Positions 40,717 through 57,543 of a stretch of DNA of 64,000 nucleotides are shown here, piece after piece; position 1 is the first letter of the stretch; every line of letters starts with the position of its first letter. Under the pieces are notes generated by a model. The model did not search any database. It worked only from the letters and a program-made list of their open reading frames with translations, and was not told the DNA's origin. The stretch is from Firmicutes bacterium ADurb.Bin153. GTDB lineage: Bacteria; Bacillota; DTU025; MWDF01. A program made the position numbers and the translations under genes. The stretch is from the NCBI GenBank assembly GCA_002070415.1, contig MWDF01000002.1, positions 1 through 64,000 of the forward strand, read 5' to 3'.

Positions 40717-41831
40717 TCAAAGCTTGGATCTCGGGTCGAAAGCGTCCCTCAGCCCGTCGCCGAAGAGGTTGTAGCACAGCACCGCGGCGAAGATGAACAC
40801 ACCGGCGAGCAGGTTCCAGGGCGATCTCGTCAGCGTCTGGAGGTTCATCGCCGAGGACAGCATGTTGCCCCAGGATGCGTCCGGCTCCTGGATGCCGAGC
40901 CCGAGGAACGACAGGCCTGATTCGCCGAGTATGTAGCTGGGTATCGAAAGAGTGGCACTCACGATAACAAACGAAAGGGTGTTGGGAAGTATGTGCTTCG
41001 TTATTATCCTCATGTCGCTGGAGCCGATGGCCCTTGCGGCCTGGACGTACTCCCTGGTACGTATCGAAAGCACCATGCCCCTTATGACCCTTGCCATGCC
41101 GGCCCAGCTGATGAAGCTAAGGATCGAGACTATCATGAAGTACCTCATGGTAGAGCTTATGTCCCTGGGCAGGACGGCAGCGAGCGCCAGCAAAAGGTAG
41201 AAGCTCGGGATTGACATGATGATCTCGGCGAGCCTCATCATGATGTTGTCTATCCAGCCTCCGTAATAACCGGATATGCCGCCGAAGAGCATGCCTATCG
41301 TCAGGGTTATCAGGATACCGGCCCATCCGACGAAGAGCGAAGCCCTTCCGCCGTACAGGAGTCCCTGCCGTAATCGTCGGAACCCATGATGAATATGATG
41401 CCCTCTTCACCGTCATCCGCGCGGACGCCGAACAGGTGGACATTGGATTTGATTCCCAGCAGAGCCCAGGTGTTCCTCGGATCGTCGCTCCTCATGAAGA
41501 GCCTGACGTAGAATTTCTTGTCCTTTATCTCCTGGTATTCCTGTGTCATCGGGTCGCTCATCTGCATCGCGTACACGTACGGGCGGCTGAGCTTGCCGTT
41601 TTCGTCACTCCAATACACCTTGCTGGGAGGTTGCAGGTAGTTGTTCCTTTGGGTCGTGTGCATATGGTAGGGTGACAGGAATCCCGCGAAGATCACCGAC
41701 AAGTACATCACTATCAGTATGTATGCTGAAATCATGGCGAGCTTGTGGCGCTTGAGCCTCATCCAGGCTATACGCCAGGGAGACCTTACTTTCTCTCCGT
41801 TGTGAACTTTCGTGTCCTTCTTCCTAGCCAT
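40717..41831 (-). pseudogene. oppC: oligopeptide ABC permease OppC, interrupted by a frameshift
   Basis: Two adjacent frames make one OppC/DppC. The first (41831 to about 41345) has the N-terminal helix, the long periplasmic segment and FIMGSDDYGRD. The second (about 41350 to 40717) resumes with LLYGGRASLFVGWAG and runs through the EAA loop (REYVQAARAIGSSDMRII) to the normal end DAFDPRSKL. The family has GRD-xxxx-LLYG, so about four codons plus one base (13 bases) appear to be lost at 41345-41352. This is either a real mutation that kills the importer or an assembly error. The ATG at 41831 has GGAGGTGA upstream, 13 bases after oppB. Confidence 0.85.
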
Positions 41832-41844
41832 GCGGCTCACCTCC

Positions 41845-42904: not shown

Positions 42905-44623
42905 TTACGGCTTGATGTAGTAGATCTCCTCGAGGTTGTGTATCGTCCCGCCGTAAGCCGTGGGTTTAACGTTGGCGAGCGTATTCCTTATGGCCGCTAT
43001 CGACTGAGGCGCCGCGAAGTAGATGAGCGGTACCTGGTCGGATATGATGAGCTGCCACTTCTCGTAGATGGCCGCGCGCTTTGCGGGGTCTACGACCTTG
43101 ACGCCATCGTCGAATATCTTGTCGATCTCGGTTTCCCAATCGGTGGCCGGCTTATCCTGCCTCGGGTTCCACATATGCAGGTTGCCGGTGCTGTGCCAGA
43201 CGTTCTTGCCGTTGTTGGGCTCGACCGAGCCGGTCAGGCCGATGATGATGGTATCGAAGTCGAAGGTGTCCATGAGCTTCGTGACCAGGGTGTTGAACGT
43301 GTAGGTGGTCACTGTGGCGTCGATGCCGGCCTTCTTGAGGTCTTCTACCAGGATGTTGGCCATCTTCATGCGGTTGCTGTTCTCGCTGTGGGTCGTGACC
43401 TCGAACTTGATCTGACGGCCGGTCTTGTCTACCAGCTTGTTGCCGTCATACTTGAATCCGGCCTTTGCGAACATCTCCTTGGCCTTCTCAAGCGAGTACG
43501 GATACTGGGTCACCTTGGTGCTCAGGAACTCCTTGTTGGGCGCGGAGACGGCGCTCCACTGTGGCTCCGCGAGGCCCGCGTATACCTGGTTGATTATTGT
43601 GGTCTTGTCGACAAGATGGGCTACGCCCTTCCTGAAGTACTGGTTGTTGAACCACTCAAGCTTCCAGGGCTCCTTTGCCAGGTTGGGGTTCCTGGGGTTG
43701 AGGTTGAAGACCACGAATTCGGTGGAGAATGTGGGTCCGAGGTTGTAGAGAGTGAAGTTCTCCTTCTTCTGCAGGTCCTTGAAGGTGGTGTAGTCGGTGT
43801 TCTTTATACCGAGGATGTCGGTCTCACCGGCACGGAACTTCAAGGTCTGCGTCTCGAGGTTGGGTACCAGCATGCGGATGTACCTGGTAATGTAGGGGAG
43901 AACCTGGTTCTTGCTGTTCTTCACCCAGTAGTTGGCGTTGCGCAGGTAAACTACGTATTCGTTGGGCTTGTACTGGGCTATCGTGTACATTCCGGTACCT
44001 ACGATATCCTTTACAGGCGTGTTGATGCCCCAAGTCTCGTTGAACTTGCCGGCCTTCCAGGCGGCTTCCAACTTGTGCTTGGGCAGGATCTCTATCAATA
44101 TCTGGCGAAGAAGAGGCGCGAACACTGAAGGAAGGGTGAATTCGACGGTGTAGGTGTCGATCTTCTTGTACTTCAGTGGCTGGCCGTCTATGGTCAGCAC
44201 GTCGCGCGACGAGGTCTGTACGTTCTTGTCATAGATTACGTCGAAGGAGAAGATGACATCGTCCGCCGTCATCTCCTTGCCGTCGGAGAATTTGACTCCC
44301 TGTCTCAGGTTAAAGGTCCAAACCAGGCCGTCGGGGCTGAAGCTCCAGCTCTTGGCGAGGCAGGGGATCACTGCGGTCGTGACTCCGTCGGTCGCGGTCA
44401 GGCCCTCGAATATCGGGGCGAGAACGTCCGTGGACGAAGTCTCAGCAGCAGTCACGGGGTTGAAAGTCTTCGGGTCGGTAATCTGTGCGACCACGAGCTG
44501 GCCGCCGAACGTGCCGACGGGCATCTCGCTGATCTTGTACTCCGTAGGTGCAGCCAATACGGGCAGCATCATGGAGCCGATGAACATCATCGCCAGGAAT
44601 AGGGACACGGCTCTTTTGATCAT
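42905..44623 (-). CDS. oppA: oligopeptide/dipeptide-type solute-binding protein (family 5)
   Basis: The 572-residue protein has a signal peptide (MIKRAVSLFLAMMFIGSMM, cleavage near VLA-APT) without a lipobox. Family 5 features include LVVAQITDPKTFNPVTAAE, IFEGLTATDG, CLAKSWSFSPDGLVWTF, LRQGVKFSDGKEMTADDV and VGTGMYTIAQYKPNEYV. Ligands of this family are peptides, nickel or sugars; the genes around it do not decide, though two peptidases lie nearby. GGAGG is 11 bases before the ATG, and AAAAGG lies immediately upstream. Confidence 0.9.
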   Translation of the reverse strand: MIKRAVSLFLAMMFIGSMMLPVLAAPTEYKISEMPVGTFGGQLVVAQITDPKTFNPVTAAETSSTDVLAPIFEGLTATDGVTTAVIPCLAKSWSFSPDGLVWTFNLRQGVKFSDGKEMTADDVIFSFDVIYDKNVQTSSRDVLTIDGQPLKYKKIDTYTVEFTLPSVFAPLLRQILIEILPKHKLEAAWKAGKFNETWGINTPVKDIVGTGMYTIAQYKPNEYVVYLRNANYWVKNSKNQVLPYITRYIRMLVPNLETQTLKFRAGETDILGIKNTDYTTFKDLQKKENFTLYNLGPTFSTEFVVFNLNPRNPNLAKEPWKLEWFNNQYFRKGVAHLVDKTTIINQVYAGLAEPQWSAVSAPNKEFLSTKVTQYPYSLEKAKEMFAKAGFKYDGNKLVDKTGRQIKFEVTTHSENSNRMKMANILVEDLKKAGIDATVTTYTFNTLVTKLMDTFDFDTIIIGLTGSVEPNNGKNVWHSTGNLHMWNPRQDKPATDWETEIDKIFDDGVKVVDPAKRAAIYEKWQLIISDQVPLIYFAAPQSIAAIRNTLANVKPTAYGGTIHNLEEIYYIKP

Positions 44624-44753
44624 CCTTTTGTACGCCTCCTTCTCAATTGTCTAATGGGTCTACGTAAAAATTGACGGATTACATATAGTTTCAATAAATG
44701 TACTTGTTCTTCGCATATGGGCAATTTCCTCTAAGGATGCTATTTTTGCTTAT

Positions 44754-44780
44754 GTTATACTCAACGGGCCTTGTAGTCAA
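44754..44780 (-). promoter_or_regulatory. possible oppA promoter
   Basis: On the minus strand TTGACT (44780-44775) and TATAAC (44759-44754) are separated by 15 bases, shorter than ideal. A palindrome TACTA-CATATA-TAGTA lies just upstream at 44793-44808 and overlaps the divergent repeat element. Confidence 0.4.
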
Positions 44781-44802
44781 TGTCGGACTGCTTACTACAT
44801 AT

Positions 44803-44856
44803 ATAGTATAGTTATCTGCCAGGATTATGCAATTGGGTATAAAAGGCATTGCCCTA
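44803..44856 (+). repeat. promoter/leader repeat, copy A
   Basis: This 54-base stretch aligns without gaps to 47295-47348. ATAGTATA is identical in both, a 10-base spacer differs, and the next 36 bases match at 31 positions (CAAT-GGG-ATAAA-GGCATTGCCCTA in common). GGGTA (44835-44839) can pair with TGCCC (44850-44854), using a G-U pair where copy B has A-T/C-G only. Copy A is followed by no intact gene, but points towards the broken apbE. Confidence 0.7.
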
Positions 44857-45335
44857 AAAAGACGGTTGGAGCTCAAGGATTTCCTGCTCGTTATCCGAAC
44901 GGTTCACGTCCCTTAAGGATGGGACATCGTACTTTCTTGTCCGGCCTGTTTTATGCATGAGCGCATACAGATTCATGATTCGGAGCGCGGCGGCCTAGAC
45001 GATAACCTAGCGGAAAATCCGCCGGTATTTACGATCCGAAGAGGTTGCGCCGCACGCAACCTTCTGTACAATTCCGGACCGGCGCACAAATATACCCATC
45101 GTGTCCGCAGAGAATACGCAAGGCGCTATGAACGATGCCCTTCGGATGATAAATGAATTGAAAATATTAAATCTTGCGACAATTCAAGCAAGGAACTAGC
45201 AGAACGAAAGAGAATACTGGAAACAGAGGCAGATACGATTTCGTGGGGCCGTAGGGCGCTTTCTTGCTTGGTTATTGTCCGTACACGGATTTGCGCTGAC
45301 GGAAAACGATGTGGGATCCCTATTGGATGTGAGCG
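44857..45335 (+). other. gene-poor stretch upstream of the broken apbE
   Basis: No protein with recognisable features or a ribosome site is seen on either strand. A 67-codon frame at 44953-45156 has unusual codon use (CGC, CGA, CGT for Arg) and no family resemblance. The stretch is probably decayed sequence linked to the apbE pseudogene. Confidence 0.5.
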
Positions 45336-46334
45336 TTGGAATCCGGGCCGGACAGCATACCGAAGGAGGGATCGACAACGACTGTGGCATCGGCAGTTGA
45401 AACCATGATCTTCGGTATGAACACCGAAATCACATGCAAAATATACGGAGACGGCGCAACGAAGGCAGAAGCTTGTGTCACAGCCGAGCTGGGCAGGCTG
45501 GAGAAGAAGCTCAGCCGTTCATGCCCGACGGGTAAATCGGCATGCTGAACCGTTCAGCCGGAAAGGCCCCAGTGAAGCTCAGTCCGGAGACTTACGGATT
45601 GCTTAAGCGATCGATAGGATATTCCGTGCTGACCGCAGGGCTTTTCGATGTTACGGTAGGCCCCCTCATGGATCTGTGGGATTTCGCACACGCATCTTGC
45701 GCACCGGCGGAAGAGGATATAGCGTCGGCGCCTTCCCTGGTCGGCTTTCGCGACCTGCTGCTGGACGGTGCCAAGCGAACTGCGATGTTGGGAGGGCAGG
45801 GACAGGGAATCGACCTTGGCGGGATAGGCAAAGGCTACGCGGGCGTCTGCGGCATGGAAGCGCTTCGCAAGAACGGGATCAGATCGGCCGCCTTTAGTAT
45901 CGGGGGGAACGTATCAGTCCTCGGCGCTAAACCGGACGGGACACCTTGGTCGGTCGGGGTGCGCCATCCGAGGAATCACGGGCTACTGCTCGGGACATTA
46001 TTCGCGAAAGGCAAATCCATAGTGACTTCCGGGATTACGAACGTTTCTTTTTCGACAGGGAAGGGAGACGGTATCATCATATCCTCGACCCTTGCACGGG
46101 CTACCACGCGGATTCGGGGCTGGTCAGCTTGACGGTGATAGCGGATGACGGCCTTATGGCGGACGCGCTTTCCACTGCGATATTCGCCTCGGGCATCGAC
46201 AAGGGAATGGGTACCTAAAGCGGCTTCCTGAAGCGGAGGCCGTGCTCATGGATTCATATCACGATGTATACTACACAAAAGGCCTGCAAGGAAGCTTTCT
46301 TGGCGTTGGCGGCATCAGGACCAGACTGATTTGA
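45336..46334 (+). pseudogene. apbE: FAD:protein FMN transferase (ApbE), decayed
   Basis: ApbE attaches FMN to threonine in FMN-binding proteins. The remains are clear: FGMNTEITCKIYGDG, KKLSR, then in another frame MLNRSAGKAPVKLSPETYGLLK, FDVTVGPLMDLW, GQGIDLGGIGKGYA, a third frame with [20 protein letters not shown] (split by one base loss at GGGATT near 46033) and [21 protein letters not shown], and a last part PEAEAVLMDSYHDVYY. I count three frame changes (near 45517, 46033 and 46215) and one in-frame TAA at 45533. Several independent lesions make sequencing error unlikely. It ends 13 bases before an intact FMN-binding gene. Confidence 0.88.
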
Positions 46335-46347
46335 AAGGAGCATATCG

Positions 46348-46809
46348 ATGAGCGGCAATAAGGTGAGAAAAGGGAAAGTCGGAGTGTGGACCGTAGTATT
46401 GATCGTTGTCATTGGTGCGGTTGCCCTCATATTGGTAGGCGGATTCCTTTTCATGGGGCCGGGACTGCGCGAAGTCAAGGAGCTCATAATCAACGATGTG
46501 GATTTCGCAAAGCTGCATGACGGTACATACGTGGGAGAATACATAGGCACGAAGGATCACGTGAGGGATACGAAAGTGGAAGTGGTCATCTCGGGAGGGG
46601 AGATAGCGAGCATCAAGGTGCTGAAAGGCGCGCTGGACAAGGCCGGCATGCCGAGGAGATTGACGGGCGGCCTTGGAGTCGACGATCTTCTCAACGTCGT
46701 GATGGTGAAGAAGACCCTTCTGGTCGACGTAATCACGGGCGCGACACTTACTTCCAAGACACACCTTAAGGCGTTGGAGAATGCGCTGAAGCAGGCCCAA
46801 GTAGACTAG
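46348..46809 (+). CDS. membrane-anchored FMN-binding domain protein
   Basis: The 153-residue protein has one N-terminal membrane helix (WTVVLIVVIGAVALILVGGF) and an outside FMN-binding domain (DGTYVGEYIGTKDH, VEVVISGGEIASIKVL). The motif VDVITGATLTSK matches the (S/T)GAT flavinylation site in which a threonine receives FMN from ApbE. AAGGAG precedes the ATG. Such proteins move electrons outside the membrane, for example in Rnf/Nqr complexes and flavin-based electron transfer. The adjacent ApbE is broken, so modification would need another copy in the genome. Confidence 0.85.
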   Translation: MSGNKVRKGKVGVWTVVLIVVIGAVALILVGGFLFMGPGLREVKELIINDVDFAKLHDGTYVGEYIGTKDHVRDTKVEVVISGGEIASIKVLKGALDKAGMPRRLTGGLGVDDLLNVVMVKKTLLVDVITGATLTSKTHLKALENALKQAQVD

Positions 46810-47294
46810 GGAGGGGGCTTGCGGCATACTCGGTTGGATTGTCCGGGAAACAGGGCCAGTGGTTCCGGGAACGTGGCGCACGCCCGCGGACGCCGGTAAT
46901 CATGGCGGAAAAGAACGATAATGCCGATGAGCGGCCTTTGCGGTGGCCTGCCTCTGACAGGATCCCCGGCCGGGGCGCAATGCCGGATCTACGGCACTGG
47001 ACTGATATACGCATGGCATGTCCCTGCATCTGCGAAATGGCATCATCGGACGACATAACAGCCCATCTAGTTCGGATCCCGCCGGTAGTCGAAATACTAA
47101 CCCGATCCATCCTTCTGCTTCCAGCCTGAGGATATATGGTATTTTGCCGTGATCGTCACGGCAGAAACGGCCATGTAGGATTGGAAACAGGCATGATGAA
47201 AGTCACGGGAGGTCCCGGCAGGATGTGCTTTCAGGGAAGTAGCGGGCCCGCTGAAGCCGGAGTGCACGGCCGGGCGACATAGCACGTTCCACTT
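46810..47294. other. non-coding or decayed stretch
   Basis: Open frames on both strands (for example 46839-47129) lack ribosome sites, family features and the codon use of neighbours. A perfect seven-base hairpin GCCGTGA-TCG-TCACGGC lies at 47146-47162 without a T-run. I see nothing else here. Confidence 0.5.
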
Positions 47295-47348
47295 ATAGTA
47301 TAATTTCATGGGGGGATTATACAATCGGGCATAAATGGCATTGCCCTA
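47295..47348 (+). repeat. promoter/leader repeat, copy B, in front of the RsmC-like gene
   Basis: This is the second copy of the element at 44803-44856. It contains TATAAT (47299-47304) as a likely -10 box; GCGACA at 47274-47279 is a weak -35 at 19 bases. The conserved block therefore covers the -10 and the 5' leader. GGGCA (47327-47331) can pair with TGCCC (47342-47346). The gene start follows 13 bases after the repeat. Confidence 0.7.
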
Positions 47349-47361
47349 TTTCGGAGGCCGG

Positions 47362-47970
47362 ATGCAGCAACATTATTATTCCAGGAGGCCGGAAGCTGCC
47401 TCATCGCCCGAAACGACGAGATACGAATACCTTGGCAGGGTATTCACGTTCACGACGGACGCAGGGGTGTTCTCCAAGGGCAAGGTGGACAGGGGCACGG
47501 ACCTGCTGCTGGAAGCGCTGCAGGATGTGAGCTGCGGGAGCTTCCTGGACATGGGATGCGGATACGGGCCCGTGGGCGTCTGTTTCAAGGCCGCCCATCC
47601 CGAAGCCGAGGTATTCATGGGCGACATAAACGAAAGGGCGTGCGCGCTTGCCGAAAAGAATTCATCGCAAAACGGCGTGTCGACGAAGGTGATACAGACC
47701 GATGGATTTGCGGCTTTCGAGGGCATGAGCTTCGACTGCATCGCCATGAACCCTCCCATAAGGGCGGGCAAGGAAGTGTTGAGGCGCTTGATGTCAGAGG
47801 CGAGAGAGGCCCTGTCGGACGGCGGGCGCCTCTACATAGTAATAAGGACCAAGCAAGGTGCCGGGAGCATGAGGGACTACCTCGAGGGGCTGTTTGGCAA
47901 CTGCGAAGATGTGGAAAGAGGCTCCGGCTACAGGGTGCTGTTGTCCACGAAGCTGCCTGCGGAGAAGTGA
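47362..47970 (+). CDS. class I methyltransferase, RsmC-like
   Basis: The 202-residue protein has the SAM-binding motif FLDMGCGYGPVGV and the NPPIRAGKE motif of N-methyltransferases acting on exocyclic amines of nucleic acid bases. The N-terminal HYYSRRPEAASSPE... FTFTTDAGVFSKGKVDRGT is typical for the RsmC/YbxB group, which methylates G1207 of 16S rRNA. It is shorter than E. coli RsmC because the inactive N-terminal copy is absent, as in Gram-positive relatives. GGAGG lies four to five bases before the ATG. Confidence 0.88.
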   Translation: MQQHYYSRRPEAASSPETTRYEYLGRVFTFTTDAGVFSKGKVDRGTDLLLEALQDVSCGSFLDMGCGYGPVGVCFKAAHPEAEVFMGDINERACALAEKNSSQNGVSTKVIQTDGFAAFEGMSFDCIAMNPPIRAGKEVLRRLMSEAREALSDGGRLYIVIRTKQGAGSMRDYLEGLFGNCEDVERGSGYRVLLSTKLPAEK

Positions 47971-48014
47971 TACCGGGCGCCTGGGCGCGCAATCATTGAG
48001 AAGGTGTGATTCGT

Positions 48015-57194: not shown

Positions 57195-57543
57195 GGGGGC
57201 GATACGGTTTCGACGGGGAGAGTTGCGACAGTCTAAGCGAGCCGAGTTGTCCGCGGACTCGATAATCAAGCGGAAAACACACAAAAGCCAATAATTACGC
57301 TTACGCTGCTTAATTAAAGCAGACGTCCGAAGCGGCCCCATCCCGGAGGGTTGCAAGGGCGCCAAATAAACCGGGGATGCTCTTCCGGCAATTCTCGGAG
57401 CCGGAGGAAAAGATCATCGAGATAGCGACTGGGGAGCCGGCCGAGGGGCGCTCCGGAAGCGAAGTTGAAAACTGCGGCTACGCTCGTAGAAGGGGCTGAA
57501 GTGACCTTTTCGGACCCGGGTTCGACTCCCGGCGCCTCCACCA
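57195..57543 (+). ncRNA. ssrA: transfer-messenger RNA (tmRNA)
   Basis: The 349-base RNA starts with GGGGGCGATACGGTTTCGAC and ends with GGTTCGACTCCCGGCGCCTCC-ACCA split here after 20 bases; 5' GGGGGCG pairs with 3' CGCCTCC. The T arm and CCA are tRNA-like. The reading frame GCC AAT AAT TAC GCT TAC GCT GCT TAA (57287-57313) would encode the tag ANNYAYAA if GCC is the resume codon. The usual stop-codon hairpin (CTGCTT with AAAGCAG) follows. The adjacent smpB supports the call. Confidence 0.95.

Follow-up and report, generated by a model that had tools for sequence, protein, structure and literature searches.

How can a protein that carries a flavinylation motif stay under selection when the transferase gene beside it has decayed? 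The question is raised by a gene pair in the window, the stretch of 64,000 nucleotides analysed here (positions 1-64000 of contig C2 of Firmicutes bacterium ADurb.Bin153), which belongs to a 1.92-Mb metagenome-assembled genome (MAG; G000) of the Bacillota that is 89.3% complete, 5.8% contaminated and divided into 96 contigs. In this pair a broken apbE gene, which would have encoded a flavin adenine dinucleotide (FAD):protein flavin mononucleotide (FMN) transferase, stands directly upstream of an intact gene for a membrane-anchored FMN_bind protein. The explanation to which we give a probability of roughly 0.6 is that this flavinylation pair has lost its own transferase, and that the orphaned FMN_bind protein is flavinylated in trans by another ApbE, encoded on contig C6.

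The apbE copy of the window (45384..46334, + strand) is a pseudogene. It matches PF02424 in two pieces (45506-46066, 149.3 bits; 46033-46212, 68.6 bits), as expected of a homologue of this domain, and no continuous open reading frame (ORF) spans the domain. Alignment to the intact apbE of G001 (L046:6142-7101, 319 amino acids), a genome of the same genus and the nearest relative used as reference, reveals single-base deletions near 45516, 46032 and 46204 and an in-frame TAA at 45533..45535 (+); these are as many frame changes and stops as a first-pass annotation had counted from the sequence alone. The codon aligned to the G001 start is non-canonical, and GTG at 45384 is a possible substitute, the alignment being weak here. 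The terminal stop lies at 46332-46334.

The damage is exceptional for this genomic region. Of 153 G001 ORFs on syntenic contigs, 137 had a counterpart suitable for comparison (16 had no usable match), and 18 of the 137 were flagged, many solely because of stops near the start. When only breaks lying between 10% and 90% of protein length are counted, 10 remain outside apbE in ~143 kb (oppC 1, g57 2, g124 4, g125 1, g146 1, g152 1), in ORFs some of which may themselves have been called wrongly. The expectation for apbE is 0.07 breaks and four are observed (Poisson P 8e-7), a lesion density ~60 times that of the other compared genes. Its nonsynonymous divergence from G001 (dN 0.306) ranks second of 136 genes (median 0.068). 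Among 98 columns invariant in six intact ApbE relatives, the window pieces fail to match 15, of which 6 lie at the start or next to breaks and 9 elsewhere.

The FMN_bind gene (46348..46809, +; 153 amino acids) is intact and retains what the first-pass annotation had described, namely a position 13 bases downstream of apbE, an unbroken frame, a membrane anchor and an ITGAT motif. The protein matches PF04205 (E 2.2e-07; 31.9 bits against a curated cut-off of 22) and is 86% identical to that of G001. The spacer (46335..46347, +) begins with the Shine-Dalgarno-like AAGGAG (46335-46340), identical in G001 and probably serving in ribosome binding. A hydrophobic anchor segment at about residues 15-34 (46390..46449, +) follows a net positive N-terminus, giving a predicted N-in/C-out topology. 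The sequence DVITGAT (residues 127-133; 46726..46746, +) fits the flavinylation motif D-x-x-[ST]-G-A-[ST], with Thr133 as predicted flavin acceptor. All 25 columns invariant in 19 relatives are kept, the motif threonine among them; when G001 is taken out of the comparison, the window protein keeps 26 and the G001 protein 25 of the 30 columns invariant in the remaining 18, the threonine again being kept. The closest solved structure to the FMN_bind profile is that of Clostridium perfringens CPE2226 (PDB 3O6U; E 2.5e-06), a distant likeness seen by profile alone. An AlphaFold model of modest confidence (predicted local distance difference test, pLDDT, 67.2) has a helix at residues 12-34 followed by a strand-rich domain; it was used for no conclusion.

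Comparison of the two genes demonstrates that decay is confined to apbE and that FMN_bind is kept under purifying selection. In a likelihood test of amino-acid branch lengths, window against sister (60 bootstraps; 19 and 21 taxa), the apbE branch of the window measures 0.527 against 0.273 for the sister and is longer in 60/60 bootstraps, whereas the FMN_bind branch measures 0.052 against 0.104 and is longer in only 4/60. FMN_bind has a dN of 0.081 (rank 54 of 136) and a nonsynonymous-to-synonymous ratio (dN/dS) of 0.121 against a median of 0.073, such ratios being rough because synonymous sites are close to saturation. An intact 459-base frame would survive neutral evolution at the apbE lesion rate with P ~0.15, so that intactness by itself is insufficient as proof of selection. 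Release of FMN_bind from constraint when apbE died would be expected to have added 16 to 65 amino-acid changes over the same period (5-95% range of the apbE excess), and the window branch in its entirety carries ~8. Counted against two outgroups, lineage-specific FMN_bind changes are in balance (6/5 and 5/5), and together with the branch lengths this rules out decay of FMN_bind. The earlier suggestion that the substrate is kept by selection although the enzyme beside it is gone is thus upheld by the branches, and the one close FMN_bind gene found, that of G001, is likewise intact.

Which enzyme might then serve the FMN_bind protein? Besides the pseudogene, the MAG holds one ApbE, that on contig C6, which is intact, comprises 369 amino acids and begins with a hydrophobic membrane leader. 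Compared with its G001 counterpart it is constrained (dN 0.077, dN/dS 0.080), and this type of ApbE is present in all three searched genomes of the genus (G000, G001 and G002, the last 77% complete). The first-pass annotation had supposed that a second ApbE may serve the protein and had pointed to possible Rnf partners. Such an enzyme does exist, its service to this protein being what we infer, and so does a complete rnfCDGEAB operon, on contig C14, with all six subunits above NCBIfam subfamily cut-offs. The FMN_bind gene of the window lies outside any rnf or nqr operon, the C14 operon having its own RnfG, which carries DGISGAT; further FMN_bind proteins are encoded on contigs C6 and C11. The presence of the C6 type of ApbE in all three genomes probably reflects a need of RnfG and the other FMN_bind proteins for it, and the local apbE would on this view be redundant. 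As to a fumarate reductase-like partner, G000 gave only short FAD_binding_2 matches, and a full-length one was found in G002 only. One small FMN_bind protein, at C11:41030-41230 (L006) and on contig C32 of G001 (L163), has SRAT in place of SGAT, which its G002 relatives retain, and may be a substrate that has escaped flavinylation and is retained nevertheless. Directly upstream of the C6 apbE lies the gene (L008:6342-7406, -) for a 354-amino-acid protein whose two halves resemble each other and which matches nothing in Pfam; this protein is possibly a partner or a substrate.

These elements would fit together as follows. An ancestral unit would have paired a leaderless ApbE with an FMN_bind protein anchored in the membrane. 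In the lineage of the window, apbE has decayed to a pseudogene and FMN_bind has stayed under purifying selection; the threonine of DVITGAT would most likely still receive FMN from the C6 ApbE, in trans, on the outer side of the membrane. The cell would then have tolerated losing the adjacent apbE because this maturase was redundant.

Similar arrangements recur among relatives. A scan of a genome collection with the FMN_bind family returned 36 loci, of which 20 have an ApbE gene directly upstream (two are cut by contig ends) and 16 have none in the fetched flank. Two of these 16 orphans, L082, for which there is no sequence upstream, and L099, which represents another paralog (37% identity), were omitted from the FMN_bind tree and from neighbourhood clustering. 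An ApbE match lies elsewhere in 15 of the 16 orphan genomes (partial in that of L099), and more than one ApbE match was found in 18 of the 20 paired genomes, some matches being pieces. In the FMN_bind tree the orphans fall into two groups, one of 11 rows, mainly Clostridia, and one of 4 Paenibacillus-type rows (97/95 support), and a branch with 100/99 support leaves the latter on one side together with every paired row. The starred branches of the tree do not by themselves force two orphan origins, and 4% of bootstrap trees give one; as the tree is unrooted, loss and gain of apbE are indistinguishable for the large group. In the Paenibacillus-type relatives the neighbouring apbE appears to have been lost in a similar way. 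Taken alone, the window pair is a moderately interesting example of a redundant maturase; the clade of leaderless ApbEs described below and the recurrent lack of apbE next to a conserved substrate give it more weight. Gene neighbourhood is a main basis for assigning substrates to ApbEs, and natural loss of the enzyme with a conserved substrate makes the interchangeability of ApbEs testable.

Clustering of 37 neighbourhoods (34 scan loci, the window, G032 and G033) brings out a recurring unit with a TetR gene in 28, apbE in 20 (including the window remnant) and a flavodoxin-like gene in 17. All five TetR proteins tested exceed the Pfam cut-off; 'flavodoxin-like' is a reading of the sequences, seven of which gave four FMN_red matches under the cut-off and three no match in Pfam. 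In L069, L077 and L085 the order is TetR, apbE, FMN_bind, with the flavodoxin-like gene further downstream, and in all four Paenibacillus-type loci TetR lies directly upstream of FMN_bind, followed by the flavodoxin-like gene, with no apbE between. Six orphan loci (L074, L081, L083, L088, L091 and L094) have a conserved protein of ~100 amino acids between TetR and FMN_bind, the usual slot of apbE; two of these proteins were tested in Pfam and gave no match. In both protein trees, apbE and FMN_bind of the window fall within the clades of the TetR-apbE-FMN_bind-flavodoxin-like unit. Neither a TetR gene nor a convincing remnant of one stands beside the pair in the flanks of the window or G001, and a flavodoxin-like gene is missing from the same flanks; a flavodoxin-like query found nothing in the three genomes of the genus, in a search that had no positive control. 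A small protein, F5 (~45163-45276), was considered as a TetR or flavodoxin remnant and set aside as unconvincing, with 31% identity over 39 residues and an E value of 0.002 in a search of very small size; the second-best match in the flanks had E 0.049. Flavodoxin and FMN reductase are reported as flavinylation substrates (PMC11334425). The flavodoxin-like neighbour was considered as the true substrate of the unit; this was rejected, the motif being present in 0 of 17 such proteins.

The lost enzyme type differs from the C6 enzyme in its N-terminus, which raises the matter of compartment. The neighbouring ApbEs form one clade (Shimodaira-Hasegawa-like approximate likelihood ratio test, SH-aLRT, 99 in a quick tree). 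Scored as 18 residues of hydropathy >= 1.6, a simple criterion rather than a dedicated signal-peptide predictor, an export segment occurs in 0 of 23 neighbouring ApbEs scored, G001 included, even when the longest frame is taken, against 42 of 45 others. The 23 comprise 17 from scan loci, that of G001 and those of five other genomes, with second copies, the partial L090 and L115 omitted; the 45 include L039, L042 and L044, all with leaders, and thirteen ApbE matches without a locus were left out of the scoring. The three others lacking a leader are L110, L117 and L131, the last of which belongs to the L076 genome and lies at the end of a contig, where the assembly does not place it beside its FMN_bind gene.

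On the substrate side, a net charge of at least +3 is found at the FMN_bind N-terminus in 30 of 37 rows, the rest being partial, a different paralog, or deprived of this stretch by a script-chosen start. According to the positive-inside rule, a positively charged N-terminus before one hydrophobic segment places the domain after the segment outside, and the flavin domain of FMN_bind is therefore predicted to lie outside the membrane. Leaderless neighbouring enzymes and an outward-looking substrate constitute a compartment mismatch in a widespread clade. If both predictions hold, FMN attachment must precede the crossing of the membrane by the domain; either the leaderless ApbEs act before export, or the predicted FMN_bind topology is wrong. 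A tentative proposal, which we regard as doubtful, is that leaderless ApbEs attach FMN in the cytosol before export and that the window lineage has been switching to outside flavinylation by a shared exported enzyme.

Known systems offer partial parallels. ApbE and FMN_bind gene pairs are described in a survey, with several of both in many genomes (Meheust et al., 2021, eLife; PMC8238504); the window shares the adjoining genes, but its neighbouring enzyme is of a leaderless type and a pseudogene. In that survey, extracytosolic components were counted after removal of genes that lacked both a signal peptide and a lipidation site, clusters with one such signal being kept, so that leaderless partners may be under-reported (PMC8238504). 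A precedent for service in trans is given by the ApbE of Pseudomonas stutzeri, which is encoded away from the nos cluster and is reported to flavinylate NosR (PMC7660919). There too the transferase is encoded elsewhere and the substrate cluster has none of its own, but the enzyme is absent from the cluster, whereas the window still contains its decaying remnant. Cytosolic ApbEs exist as well according to a 2025 review, which gives the flavinylation motif and cites as its example the ApbE of Klebsiella pneumoniae that acts on a soluble fumarate reductase (PMC12052999); that ApbE lacks a signal peptide, as does the neighbouring type of the window, but its substrate is soluble, whereas that of the window is membrane-anchored and predicted to face outward. 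Among the matches listed, open-access literature on ApbE, pseudogene and flavin held none evidently about such a case, and no title pointed to the TetR-apbE-FMN_bind-flavodoxin unit.

How firmly, then, does service in trans stand against other explanations? That most of the lesions stem from faulty assembly or sequencing, with apbE intact in the living organism, is very improbable: a contaminated MAG in 96 contigs gives room for errors, and other frame breaks occur on the contig, such as a 13-bp deletion in oppC, but errors do not produce a doubled amino-acid branch recovered in every bootstrap, and the unmatched invariant columns away from the start and breaks, as well as the lesion density, argue in the same direction. 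It is unlikely that the FMN_bind protein is no longer flavinylated, having only loosely bound flavin or a non-redox role. Its own enzyme is dead, the SRAT protein suggests that the motif may change while a protein persists, and the leaderless nature of the lost enzyme type would allow a cytosolic domain beyond the reach of the C6 enzyme; against this, the full motif and all 25 columns invariant in 19 relatives are kept, and the window protein evolves no faster than its sister, which has an intact apbE. The related idea in the first-pass annotation, that FMN is now bound without covalent attachment, gains no support from this retention of conserved columns and motif threonine. Rather more unlikely is a loss of the whole unit in the genus, with TetR and the flavodoxin-like gene already gone, apbE next and FMN_bind last. 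Such a course would agree with the two genes missing beside the pair in the window and G001, the empty flavodoxin-like search, the failure to find a close FMN_bind ortholog in the incomplete G002, and the fact that an intact FMN_bind frame is only modestly improbable under neutrality, but the window branch is too short for the changes that an unconstrained FMN_bind would be expected to have gathered since the death of apbE.

Several observations weigh against flavinylation by the C6 enzyme or against the decay it presupposes. The identity of the C6 ApbE to the lost leaderless type is no more than ~26-28%, and ApbEs are not always interchangeable, since NirX is reported not to replace NosX in Paracoccus denitrificans (PMC7660919). 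If the FMN_bind domain were cytosolic, the C6 enzyme would be unable to reach it, and absence of flavinylation would be the better explanation. As the MAG is 89% complete, an additional ApbE may be unassembled, and the search of one orphan genome, the MAG G050, gave no ApbE match. Single apbE lesions may be errors in a MAG with 5.8% contamination. Lineage-specific apbE changes, counted with five single outgroups (30/19, 23/21, 30/20, 22/19 and 26/18), lean the same way, none significantly, and the acceleration of apbE is significant only by likelihood branch lengths with bootstrap. On balance, service by the second ApbE is the best-supported interpretation, in which covalent flavin, topology and C6 specificity are all inferred.

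Elsewhere around the pair, no RNA family reached the gathering threshold in 44500-48000, a promoter scan found 4 promoter-like sites where shuffled sequence yields 2.5 on average, which is not above chance, and a terminator scan gave none. The gene split by the 13-base deletion, which we take to be an oppC-type permease gene (40717-41840, -), is an intact gene of 378 amino acids in G001; the adjoining genes, presumably for another permease and a binding protein, have the same lengths as in G001. Further along the contig, at C2:121178-122916 of G000, two neighbouring ORFs are interrupted, in comparison with G001, by several stops and one frame change; this may be another decaying locus, or the ORFs may have been called in a wrong frame. 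The window also includes a transfer-messenger RNA (tmRNA) gene at 57195-57543 (+), with the tag ANNYAYAA.
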